Below are positions 39,863 through 43,345 of a DNA stretch of 64,000 bases, piece after piece (the first letter of the stretch is position 1; the number at the start of each line of letters is the position of its first letter). The notes beneath the pieces were generated by a model, which was not told the origin of the DNA, did no database searches, and saw only the letters and a list, made by a program, of their open reading frames with translations. The position numbers and the translations under genes were made by a program. This DNA is from Martelella radicis (GTDB lineage Bacteria > Pseudomonadota > Alphaproteobacteria > Rhizobiales > Rhizobiaceae), in the NCBI RefSeq assembly GCF_014196625.1, contig NZ_JACIDZ010000010.1, positions 1 to 64,000 on the forward strand. Direction: 5' to 3'.

Positions 39863-39894
39863 GCGAAGCCGGGGCGCACGTGTCCCGGCTTCGC
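39863..39894. terminator. Hairpin terminator after xylA
   Basis: An 11-bp perfect stem GCGAAGCCGGG / CCCGGCTTCGC with a 10-nt loop is followed by CGTTTCTGCCTTTCC. It lies 24 nt after the xylA stop. The T content is moderate, and it may serve both xylA and the converging methyltransferase gene. Confidence 0.65.
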
Positions 39895-39974
39895 CGTTTC
39901 TGCCTTTCCTGCAGCGGAAAGGCAGATGAACCAGGGTCTTCACACATCCCTGGAACCTGAAGCGTCTTTCATGC

Positions 39975-40934
39975 CTACCGGGCGGCGGCCTTGAAATGGC
40001 CGTCGCAGGCCTTTGCGATCGCGGCGACGTGGCGGTGATCGGTTCCGCAGCAGCCGCCGAAGACGCGGACGTTCGGGAAGAGGCCGATCAGCGCGCGATA
40101 ATCCTCGCCGAGCCCCGCCGGATCGCCGTCATCGAGCTCGGTGGCATTGTCGAGTTCCTCGTGGCTCATGCGCGAAGCATTGGCGCGGATACCGCCGATG
40201 CGCTTCGTCCATTCCTCGCCGGCTTCGATTGCCGGACGGAAGTGGTCCGGGTGAGCGCAGTTTATCATCAGATAGGCCGCGGCGCTGCCCGTTGCCGCAT
40301 CGGTCTCGCGGATCGCCTCGGCAAGCGGCGTGCCGTCCGGAAGCCGTCCGTCGGTCTCCACCGTGTAGGCGACGACGCTTGGCAGGTCGCGGGCGGTTGC
40401 CGCGCGGATGAAGCCAACCCCTTCGGCTACCGTGGTGAAGGTAAAGCCGCCCACCATGTCGGCCGCCGTTTCAGCGAACCAGCCGATCTGCTCGCCATGA
40501 TAGTCTTCCGCTTCCTTCGCAGTCATCGCGGTATCCGGCTGATAGCCATCCCCGCGCGGTCCCGCATTGCCGGAAATCAGCACTGGTGCTTGCTCTGCCA
40601 TCTCGCCGCGAAGCTTCTCAAGCATCGCGATCGCCTTTTGATTGAAGCGCCGGAGGTCCTCCGGCGTATGACCAAGGGTCGCGCCCCAGTCCCGGTTGGC
40701 GCGCCAGGTCGGCGCTTCCAGCACGAAGCCCGTTCCGTGCCGCGCGGCTATCCTCAGATGGCGGCGAAAATAGGTCTCGAGGACAGCCATGCCTTCCGCC
40801 GTTTCGAGCAACGGATAGGAGGCAAAGCTCGGCAGATCGAGCCCCTCATGGAAGATCAGATAGGTCTCCAGGCCGGAATCGGTCAGGAGAAATGCGTCGC
40901 CCGCGAGCGGCAGGCGGTTGCGCAGTGCAGTCAT
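39975..40934 (-). CDS. Homocysteine S-methyltransferase family protein (MmuM/BHMT type)
   Basis: This is a 319-residue zinc methyltransferase that moves a methyl group from a donor such as S-methylmethionine, SAM or a betaine to homocysteine, forming methionine. It starts LLTDSGLETYLIFHEGLDLP, and has VLEAPTWRANRDW and TFTTVAEGVG. The zinc ligands are in LMINCAHPDHF (Cys) and VFGGCCGTDHRH (Cys-Cys). The true donor cannot be read from the sequence. The start at 40934 has AAGGGA upstream; a frame to 41321 is spurious. It is the last gene of the minus-strand run that includes the betaine-type oxygenase, which raises the possibility of a betaine donor (inference). Confidence 0.87.
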   Translation of the reverse strand: MTALRNRLPLAGDAFLLTDSGLETYLIFHEGLDLPSFASYPLLETAEGMAVLETYFRRHLRIAARHGTGFVLEAPTWRANRDWGATLGHTPEDLRRFNQKAIAMLEKLRGEMAEQAPVLISGNAGPRGDGYQPDTAMTAKEAEDYHGEQIGWFAETAADMVGGFTFTTVAEGVGFIRAATARDLPSVVAYTVETDGRLPDGTPLAEAIRETDAATGSAAAYLMINCAHPDHFRPAIEAGEEWTKRIGGIRANASRMSHEELDNATELDDGDPAGLGEDYRALIGLFPNVRVFGGCCGTDHRHVAAIAKACDGHFKAAAR

Positions 40935-41170
40935 GATAAAAGTCCCTTTCCTTTGATACCGCAGACGCGCCTTCCCTGCGGCGCGCAGGCCGCGAACACG
41001 GCACTCCGTCCGTCCCATCCTGGAAGCGTGTCTGCATGTGTCCGGCGCGCCCCTCAGACACGCCGCAATCCCTTCGCGCACAGGTCTTGCCCGCGACGCA
41101 GCGGCTTTTGCCTCATGCAGCGGACAAGCGCTACTGGACTCACGGTACAGTTGCGATGAAAAACATCGGA

Positions 41171-42139
41171 TCAGGTAAGGGCAATCGCAAATGCAATGAC
41201 GATCAACACGGCGTGGACCGCCATGATGGTCCCGCCTGCCCTGAAATTTAGCATTCTCGCCCGTACGGGTCCGCTTGCAACCAGGATGCGCTGCGTGAGG
41301 ATCGAAAGCATGAGCACGCAAAGGATTGCGCTGAAGGTCAGGAAGGAAACCTGATCGACAATGCCGAACGTCGCATCGAAGCCGATCGCATCCTCCAGCC
41401 GGTAGCGGTTGAACACCGCTGCGAACACCGAACCCGTGGTGACGCCGACGCGCGTGCCGAGTTCCTCGACCGGTATGAACAGAACCAGTCCGGTGATGAA
41501 CAGCGCCACAAAGAAGCCGGTGAATTTCTCGAACAGAAGCGGAGAAAGCTTCCGCTGGATGTCGACCACGAAGGTGACTCGTGAATAGGGGACGATCTCG
41601 TCGCGGTAGCCGAACCGGGTTTGGTAGGTGACGGCCCGGTCCTCGAACGACAATGAGTCGATCAGCCAGCCCGGAGCCCGCACAAACTCAGCGATCTGGC
41701 TGTCCTCGGCATCGGGCACGAAAATCGTATGGCTGACGCTGTCAGCGGATTCGAACTTGATCCGCAGGACCTGACTGTCGAAGGGGTAGTCGCCGACATC
41801 GAAGGCGTGATCGATGACCGCGTCGAACTCCACAGCGGTGTAGGTCGACCCGTTCGACAGAACGGTGCTGGCAAAAACATTGGTGGTCGATGACCGCGAG
41901 ATAAGCTCGAAGTCCCTGTTGGCGTCAAAAGTGCCCGTCGGATCGAGGAACCAGGCATAACCCGCAGCACGAAAGCTGCCATCGCTCGGCGTGACGGAGG
42001 AGATCGATGTAAGGAAAATGCCGACCTTGACGGCGCGCGGCTCGCCCTGGGCCATACTCTCCGGCGCAAGCGCAAAAGCCAATACCAACGGCAGCATCGA
42101 GCGCAACAGCCCCACTGACCGCAGCCACGCGATGGCCAT
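41171..42139 (-). CDS. Predicted pentameric ligand-gated ion channel (GLIC/Cys-loop superfamily)
   Basis: The 322-residue protein has a signal peptide (residues 1-30, ending ESMA), a beta-rich extracellular domain (about 31-200) and four C-terminal hydrophobic helices (about 203-222, 230-247, 258-282 and 303-321). This is the pentameric ligand-gated channel layout. The sequence DVGDYPFDSQVLRI (115-127) carries the superfamily hallmark; YPFDSQ is identical to the GLIC motif. The first strand VGIFLTSISSV and the YAWFLDP segment also fit. M2 reads GTRVGVTTGSVFAAVFN, similar in pattern to eukaryotic anion-channel M2 (ARVG...). No Cys pair flanks the loop, as in other prokaryotic members. The start codon is uncertain: ATG 42139 lacks a good ribosome-binding site, and a TTG at 42163 is possible. 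It lies between betaine-type catabolic genes. Confidence 0.75.
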   Translation of the reverse strand: MAIAWLRSVGLLRSMLPLVLAFALAPESMAQGEPRAVKVGIFLTSISSVTPSDGSFRAAGYAWFLDPTGTFDANRDFELISRSSTTNVFASTVLSNGSTYTAVEFDAVIDHAFDVGDYPFDSQVLRIKFESADSVSHTIFVPDAEDSQIAEFVRAPGWLIDSLSFEDRAVTYQTRFGYRDEIVPYSRVTFVVDIQRKLSPLLFEKFTGFFVALFITGLVLFIPVEELGTRVGVTTGSVFAAVFNRYRLEDAIGFDATFGIVDQVSFLTFSAILCVLMLSILTQRILVASGPVRARMLNFRAGGTIMAVHAVLIVIAFAIALT

Positions 42140-42259
42140 GCAGGTGATGGTCGGTCCGATCAAAAAAACCTGCTTCCTTGCGCCCGAAATGTCCTTGGCT
42201 CCCAAGATATTCCTTGCACATATCTTGTCACCAGGACGCCTGGCGGGCAAGCACGTCCC

Positions 42260-43345
42260 TTAGGCCTCCACCTCGACATCCGACAGCGGGCGCGAGCAGC
42301 AGGCGAGGATGTAGCCCTCCTCGATCTCGTCATCGAGAATGCCGCCATTGTGCTGCATGTCGACCTTGCCGGACTTGCACATGGTGCGGCAGGTGCCGCA
42401 GATGCCAGACTCGCAGGCGGCGGGTATGCGCACGCCGGCATTGCGAGCGGTCTGCAGGATGGTGAAGCCGGGCTGGACTTCCGCCGTCACGCCGGAATCG
42501 GCGAATTCGACGGTGAACAGCTTGTCCTCGTCGCCGCTCTCGCCAATGAAGACGGCCGGCGGCGGCACTTCGGGCTTGAAGGTCTCCTGGAAATAATTGT
42601 TTTCCATGTCGAAATTGGAGCTTTCGAGCGAATCCCTGACCGTTGCCATGAACGGGTCCGGCCCGCAGCAGAACACCCGCCGTTCAAGGAAATCCGGCAC
42701 CAGAAGCGCGATCTTGGCGCGGTCGATGAAGCCCCGAAGCCCCGACCAGAGCTGGGTGCGTTCGAGCTCGGTGACGATGAAGCCGAGGTTGAAGAAGGGC
42801 ATGTAGCGCGCCTTGTACTCCAGCTCCCAGCGGAAGATGATGTCGCTCGGCGAGCGGGCGCAGTGGATGAAGGCGATGTCGGTGTCAGGATCGCGATCGC
42901 CCAGATCCCGCGTCATCGACATCATCGGCGTGATTCCTGAACCAGCCGAGATGAACAGGTACTTCTCCGCCGGATGCTCGACATAGGAGAAATCGCCGAG
43001 CGGGCCGATCGCCTTCAGCTTCATGCCGGGATGCAGGTTCTCGAACATCCAGCGCGTGCCGATACTGTCCTTCTGCGCCTTCACCGTCACGGCGATGGTG
43101 AAGGGCCGCGTCGGGCTGGAGGAGATCGTATAGGTGCGCATGATCGGCTCGGGGCCGACCGGCAGTTCCAGCGTGATGTACTGGCCCGGCAGATAGCGGA
43201 ACCAGATGTTTTCCTCCTCCGCCTTGAAAGTGAAGGTCATCACATCCGGGGCTTCCGGTGTCCAGGCCACGCATTCCAGCATGTGCTCGCGGCCATTCCA
43301 CGGCACCATTTCATCGATATGTTTGAACGGCTGCGACTTGATCAT
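42260..43345 (-). CDS. gbcB: Ferredoxin-type reductase partner of Rieske oxygenase (GbcB-like)
   Basis: The 361-residue hybrid reductase passes electrons from NAD(P)H to the adjacent oxygenase. The FAD-binding part has RTYTISSSPT (flavin) and FISAGSGITPMMSM (pyridine nucleotide), with CCGPDPFM near the end of that domain. The C-terminal plant-type 2Fe-2S ferredoxin domain has Cys ligands in CESGICGTCRTMC and a last Cys in ILACCSRPL. This arrangement matches GbcB of the glycine-betaine demethylase system. The start at 43345 lies one base after the oxygenase stop, so the two are cotranscribed and coupled. The gene symbol is by analogy. Confidence 0.88.
   Translation of the reverse strand: MIKSQPFKHIDEMVPWNGREHMLECVAWTPEAPDVMTFTFKAEEENIWFRYLPGQYITLELPVGPEPIMRTYTISSSPTRPFTIAVTVKAQKDSIGTRWMFENLHPGMKLKAIGPLGDFSYVEHPAEKYLFISAGSGITPMMSMTRDLGDRDPDTDIAFIHCARSPSDIIFRWELEYKARYMPFFNLGFIVTELERTQLWSGLRGFIDRAKIALLVPDFLERRVFCCGPDPFMATVRDSLESSNFDMENNYFQETFKPEVPPPAVFIGESGDEDKLFTVEFADSGVTAEVQPGFTILQTARNAGVRIPAACESGICGTCRTMCKSGKVDMQHNGGILDDEIEEGYILACCSRPLSDVEVEA

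Follow-up and report, generated by a model that had tools for sequence, protein, structure and literature searches.

Does the 64,000-nucleotide window analysed here (positions 1 to 64,000 of contig NZ_JACIDZ010000010.1 of Martelella radicis, whose genome comprises 4,985,483 bases in 41 contigs) encode a pentameric ligand-gated ion channel (pLGIC), a member of the superfamily which includes ion channels serving nerve cells as receptors, and if so what kind of pore would it form? An earlier note, made from the sequence alone, had placed such a channel at 41171..42139; the observation is real and the coordinates are correct, and an unbroken open reading frame (ORF) of 322 residues establishes the minus strand, the plus-strand reading being ruled out by 5 stops in frame 1. 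Judged by homology, predicted monomer fold, family residues and strong conservation of the pore helix M2, the gene (hereafter P0001) encodes a true pLGIC subunit. We think it somewhat more probable than otherwise that the product is a homopentameric amine receptor of a branch carrying Phe at position 9' of M2, with a pore that is anion-permeable or poorly selective rather than cation-selective, and that it serves in chemosensing linked to either membrane potential or anion flux.

Membership of the Cys-loop/GLIC superfamily, as claimed in the earlier note, is supported by the profiles of relatives together with the predicted monomer fold, and these were decisive. The A4 profile (7 rows) aligned over positions 31-318, i.e. 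both domains, with a best E value of 2.6e-16. The Pfam check that had been proposed for the single sequence fails, as P0001 alone reaches E = 0.073 and misses the cut-off; in the A6 set, Pfam Neur_chan_LBD was found in 4 of the 8 rows at E ≤ 0.1 (best 4.1e-5), and a PF02931 search of the host genome gave no match, and likewise none in 14 control genomes. The predicted monomer (predicted local distance difference test, pLDDT, 73.8; predicted template modelling score, pTM, 0.53; four-row alignment) contains a beta-sandwich and four helices, as well as an N-terminal helix at residues 5-23 modelled with low confidence. Its best structural matches, from a re-alignment of Foldseek's best 1000 PDB chains, are mostly GLIC and GLIC chimaeras, and structural alignments with GLIC (Gloeobacter, Glr4197) give 16-17% identity.

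Seven positions are conserved across the 561 pLGIC sequences of Jaiteh 2016 (PMC4795631), where Pro is found in 100% of sequences in the Pro-loop [F/Y]PxD, in 77% at M1 14' (Gly 5%) and in 88% in the M2-M3 loop (Gly 3%), position 9' is Leu in 75% and Phe in 13%, and position 0' is Arg or Lys in 79%. When aligned with GLIC, P0001 has Y118, P119, D121, W158, R196, R230 at 0' and F239 at 9' at the family positions. Its Pro-loop motif reads Y118 P119 F120 D121, the longer YPFDSQ being identical to the GLIC motif as had been noted, and the pre-M1 Arg is R196, the predicted partner of the Pro-loop Asp D121. The M1 14' and M2-M3 prolines are replaced by G208 and G253; in Jaiteh 2016 both prolines are frequent without being obligatory, and on this comparison neither glycine excludes P0001 from the family. 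The Phe at 9' and the two missing prolines, which make P0001 unusual, did not feature in the earlier note.

These features are shared to differing degrees by a set of relatives. In an alignment of 78 rows (P0001, 75 relatives, GLIC and ELIC), the M1 proline was missing in 24 of the 25 rows with Phe at 9' and present in 52 of the 53 rows without it. The exceptions are L104, from a plasmid of Streptomyces sp. HUAS 14-6 and the sole Phe-9' row with the M1 proline, and L054, with Leu at 9' and Thr at the M1 position. Position 6' is Gly or Ala in all 25 Phe-9' rows and Thr in 38 of the 53 others; Tyr is found at 16' in 20 of the Phe-9' rows and Asn at 14' in 17, while the M2-M3 position is Pro in 19, Gly in 5 and Leu in 1. 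The first row set held 66 proteins (P0001 included) with GLIC and ELIC, to which 10 rows were added later. Left out were L044 (the same gene as L002), L090-L093 (genes already present), ORFs without a hit at E 1e-4, pieces shorter than 230 residues (first set) or 200 residues (added set) and matches without a fetched locus; sTeLIC and the frames with stops L023, L029 and L053 also lie outside the alignment, and near copies such as L017/L021 and L060/L062/L064/L065 were kept.

In a quick whole-protein tree from which the three trait columns had been removed, the 25 Phe-9' rows formed one side of a branch (SH-like approximate likelihood ratio test, SH-aLRT, 99), with GLIC outside it. P0001 falls within the branch as we define it, having Phe at 9' and no M1 14' proline and grouping with the Phe-9' rows. 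Two label changes were required on an earlier 67-row quick tree, and three on the free tree of the beta domain alone; for the beta domain, the tree with the Phe-9' rows kept as one clade is not rejected (approximately unbiased test, p-AU 0.645) and scored 3.86 log units better than the free tree. The Phe-9' rows thus probably form a single clade that arose about once, and the match between Phe 9' and the missing proline is not independent evidence that the two are coupled. A statistical claim of coupling was rejected because there are too few independent origins: one pair on supported branches and three on all branches.

When a profile of seven Phe-9' rows was searched against the PDB, GLIC- and ELIC-type chains scored best (best 60 of 177 hits); as a branch member should outscore these, we infer that no solved structure comes from the branch. 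DeCLIC has a leucine, L554, at 9' (PMC9897478). A literature search by title and abstract start among open-licence papers found no description of the branch. Loss of the M1 proline is not wholly new, as Tasneem 2004 gives P, G or S as the usual residues there and Jaiteh 2016 lists the Gly and Phe frequencies quoted above; Phe 9' joined to the loss of the M1 proline, or the branch itself, was not found in the sections of these two papers that were covered. Other uncharacterised bacterial members (e.g. L034, L036 and L102) resemble P0001 in Phe 9', Gly or Ala 6' and the lack of the M1 proline, often with Asn 14' and Tyr 16', and differ in mostly keeping the M2-M3 proline. One Phe-9' relative with Gly at the M2-M3 position, L011 (G171:C2:292098-292880), has lost both salt-bridge partners (Pro-loop Asp to Thr, pre-M1 Arg to Gln).

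P0001 groups with two orthologues, L006 and L031 (SH-aLRT 100), and all three have Gly at both proline positions. M2 (0' to 23') is the best conserved helix, with 18 of 24 residues identical across the three; the corresponding counts are 12 of 27 for M1 and 52 of 161 for the beta domain. Only three genomes yielded this subclade, and among 385 sampled genomes of the class it was found in the host alone, the other matches being more distant with a different M2. Within the genus, one genome in 13 carries the gene, and scans of viral contigs with P0001 and the A1 profile found no relatives. The family as a whole is more widespread: 33 of the 397 genomes of the host's order (host included) have a detectable relative, and the description "rare in bacteria" was therefore too strong.

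Whether a channel lacking both prolines could open can be weighed against mutants of known channels. Changing the M1 proline of GLIC (Pro-203) to Ala, Leu or Gly abolished the response (PMC4813548, Table 1); in glycine receptors the M1 Pro to Ala change is tolerated, with a five-fold rise in half-maximal effective concentration (PMC9607081). The M2-M3 Pro to Gly mutants of GLIC and ELIC keep their activation, with very slow deactivation in ELIC, and crystals of the GLIC mutant show the loop rearranged and the end of M2 unfolded (PMC4778918). By analogy, since these M2-M3 mutants still activate, Gly253 need not block function; Gly208 would be an obstacle in GLIC, and would need compensation in P0001 if it conducts.

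The silenced GLIC mutant is also the starting point for an alternative in which P0001 is a non-conducting pLGIC-like receptor, keeping its fold and ligand binding with a pore that stays shut, and acting through another signalling route or persisting as a relic. Phe 9', Phe 13' and Tyr 16' in M2, the loss of both prolines and the restriction of the gene to one genome of the genus would all agree with this. We nevertheless consider it unlikely, given that M2 is the helix best conserved among the three orthologues, that the ORF has no stop and the protein no fused signalling domain, and that Gly or Ala 6' with Phe 9' is kept in every branch row. A wider and more tentative proposal, which is possible though we would sooner doubt it than accept it, is that the members of the Phe-9' branch represent a second type of functional gating and open without the M1 proline kink, with a Gly (or Ser, Ala or Thr) hinge in M1, a Phe-9' gate and a Gly/Ala 6' ring in anion-permeable amine receptors; the P0001 subclade, with Gly at both positions, would be the most extreme natural member seen. 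The branch amounts to evolution's own experiment on conduction and the opening mechanism, and testing P0001 could show whether pLGICs open in another way, without the proline needed by GLIC.

As for the ligand, the residues of ELIC at which a change to Ala abolishes the cysteamine response are E77, I79, E131, F133, Y174, F187 and N103, with Y38 and F19 as further residues lining the site (PMC3119659). The equivalents in P0001 are, in the same order, E78, I80, E130, A132, Y172, Y185, A102, Y61 and F42, and 7 of the 9 are thus kept or conservatively replaced (Phe187 as Tyr), with Ala in place of F133 and N103. The equivalents of E131 and Y174 are invariant in the 22 Phe-9' rows of the first set. 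The ligand suggested by these residues is a small amine. P0001 and ELIC further share the fold, Arg at 0' and the spacing of M2; they differ in that ELIC is cation-selective and has proline in M1 and M2-M3, Thr 6', Leu 9' and Glu -1', where P0001 has G208, G253, Gly 6', Phe 9' and Thr -1'.

The identical YPFDSQ motif and the predominance of GLIC and its chimaeras among the structural matches would instead suggest a proton-gated cation channel like GLIC. We consider this very improbable: P0001 has no acid at -2' or -1', has the ELIC-like E78 and E130 where GLIC has R77 and I131, and belongs to a branch from which GLIC is excluded. GLIC also lacks the two binding-site glutamates and differs from P0001 in its M1 and M2-M3 prolines, Ser 6', Ile 9', Glu -2' and Asn 0'.

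Arg at 0' had been read as an anion signature, and this was rejected as Arg or Lys occupies 0' in 79% of pLGICs (PMC4795631) and the cation-selective ELIC also has Arg there. A better argument against cation selectivity is the absence of an acid at -1' or -2'. The selectivity filter of ELIC is E-1' (PMC12637682), its E229A mutant passes small anions (PMC3119659) and GLIC has Glu at -2' in our alignment; an acid at either position was found in 4 of the 25 Phe-9' rows vs 32 of the 53 others. P0001 has Gly -2', Thr -1' and Arg 0', with an acid at -4' (E226), compared with the anion-type pattern of no acid at -1', a basic residue at 0' and usually Ala at -1', for which the motif rule is A-[RK] (PMC549065). 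The eukaryotic anion-selective pLGICs, the GABA-A and glycine receptor family, share with P0001 an Arg at 0' without an acid at -1'. P0001 differs from them in lacking the Cys-loop cysteines and the M1 and M2-M3 prolines, in having GTR in place of the PAR motif of animal anion receptors and in having Phe in place of their Leu at 9'. An anion-permeable pore is plausible from these residues, and with no acid at -1' or -2' and Arg at 0' an anion-permeable or poorly selective pore is more likely than a cation-selective one. If it is true that branch members conduct anions, this would bear out the sequence-based expectation, from 2004, of both selectivities in prokaryotes (PMC549065).

For the amine receptor that we favour, the course of events would be as follows. 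After export, P0001 would sit in the inner membrane, its beta domain facing the periplasm, and five copies would assemble into one channel, a homopentamer because the host genome yielded no other family member. A small organic amine would bind between subunits at the ELIC-type site, formed by the carboxylates E78 and E130 and the aromatics F42, Y61, Y172 and Y185, and this would shift the Pro-loop (P119 and the D121-R196 salt bridge) against the M2-M3 loop, opening a pore closed by the rings of Phe 9' and Tyr 16'; G208 in M1 and G253 after M2 would occupy the positions of the M1-bulge and M2-M3 prolines of GLIC and ELIC. Binding, loop movement and gate opening are here transferred from GLIC and ELIC. 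It should be noted that several points speak against this reading: Gly at the M1 position silenced GLIC, and Gly in M2-M3 gave a crystal with an unfolded M2 end; Phe 9', Phe 13' and Tyr 16' could plug the pore; the link between Phe 9' and proline loss rests on about one origin; model confidence is moderate, falling below 50 in the Pro-loop (residues 113-120) and around loop C (residues 174-181); E226 and the mouth charges R15', R17', E19' and D20' keep selectivity unreadable from sequence; and Ala stands at the F133 and N103 positions (A132 and A102), the N103A mutant of ELIC having given no response (PMC3119659).

The coordinates of the gene, its parts and its neighbours are given in Table 1. 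Scans for promoters and terminators gave results near chance.

Table 1 Features of the P0001 locus, in positions of the window
Feature	Position	Strand	Details
pLGIC subunit gene P0001	41171..42139	minus	322 aa
N-terminal hydrophobic stretch, residues 1-31, probable signal peptide, inferred cleavage site	42047..42139	minus	hydropathy peak at residues 8-26
Ligand-binding beta domain, residues 35-196	41552..42037	minus	F42, Y61, E78, I80, E130, Y172, Y185 at ELIC amine-site positions
Pro-loop motif YPFD, residues 118-121	41777..41788	minus	
M1 helix, residues 198-221	41477..41548	minus	Gly208 where 52/53 non-Phe-9' rows have Pro
M2 pore helix, R230 (0') to G253 (23')	41381..41452	minus	G6', F9', N14', Y16'; M2-M3 Pro replaced by Gly
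M3 helix, residues 256-289	41273..41374	minus	predicted model
M4 helix, residues 291-321	41177..41269	minus	predicted model
GbcB-like glycine betaine monooxygenase reductase	42260..43345	minus	358.6 bits, under the NCBIfam cut-off of 500
Homocysteine S-methyltransferase family gene	39975..40931	minus	PF02574, above cut-off; same non-conserved stretch as the channel

The order of genes on the minus strand is GbcA-like oxygenase, GbcB-like reductase (stop at 42260), channel (42139-41171) and methyltransferase, with both Gbc-like genes scoring under their NCBIfam cut-offs. The position of the channel 120 bp downstream of the gbcB-like gene on the same strand, the homocysteine methyltransferase family member next to it and the amine-type binding site raise the question of whether it acts together with the gbcAB-like genes, as a receptor of glycine betaine or similar quaternary amines. 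This appears quite improbable, as gbcB is present in 13 of the 13 genomes of the genus and the channel in 1, two sister genomes hold a different gene in its place and the two orthologues adjoin other genes, of lipA/parE type (L006) and dapA/smpB type (L031) as read by eye. Regions from 7 of the 12 other genomes of the genus were compared. The interval 39900-42257 aligned in none of these seven; both flanks aligned in L084, L085 and L088, and only the gbcB side in the four further regions. L084 and L085, with flanks 84-91% identical, hold in place of about 39880-42260 an ORF reading by eye as a short-chain dehydrogenase, and in L088 the flanks surround other DNA. With the slot unaligned and the neighbours of both orthologues different, the operon as a clue to gbcAB was rejected.

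This variable slot, 39880-42260, lies between xylA and gbcB. Third-position G+C is 0.771 in the channel gene and 0.768 in the methyltransferase gene, and 0.794-0.848 in gbcA, xylB, xylA and gbcB; the methyltransferase was found in 2 of the 13 genomes, in the second of which the match is partial, at 61%, and interrupted by a stop. The slot probably acquired the channel, perhaps along with the neighbouring methyltransferase.

The loci of some relatives are also worthy of note. L102, on plasmid pAB510b of Azospirillum sp. B510, is a Phe-9' relative annotated as hypothetical which adjoins an alanine racemase gene and lies near ABC substrate-binding and TPR genes. L039 (G915:C53:1474-3342) comprises two adjoining Phe-9' pLGIC genes on opposite strands, and at L046 (G845:C24:32471-34505) a Phe-9' subunit lies beside a 782-aa, N-terminally extended non-Phe-9' relative on the same strand, with which it might form a heteromer. 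L003, L004, L024, L025 and L028 carry a long N-terminal extension which by eye resembles a periplasmic binding protein, and fusions of this type were described in 2004 (PMC549065).
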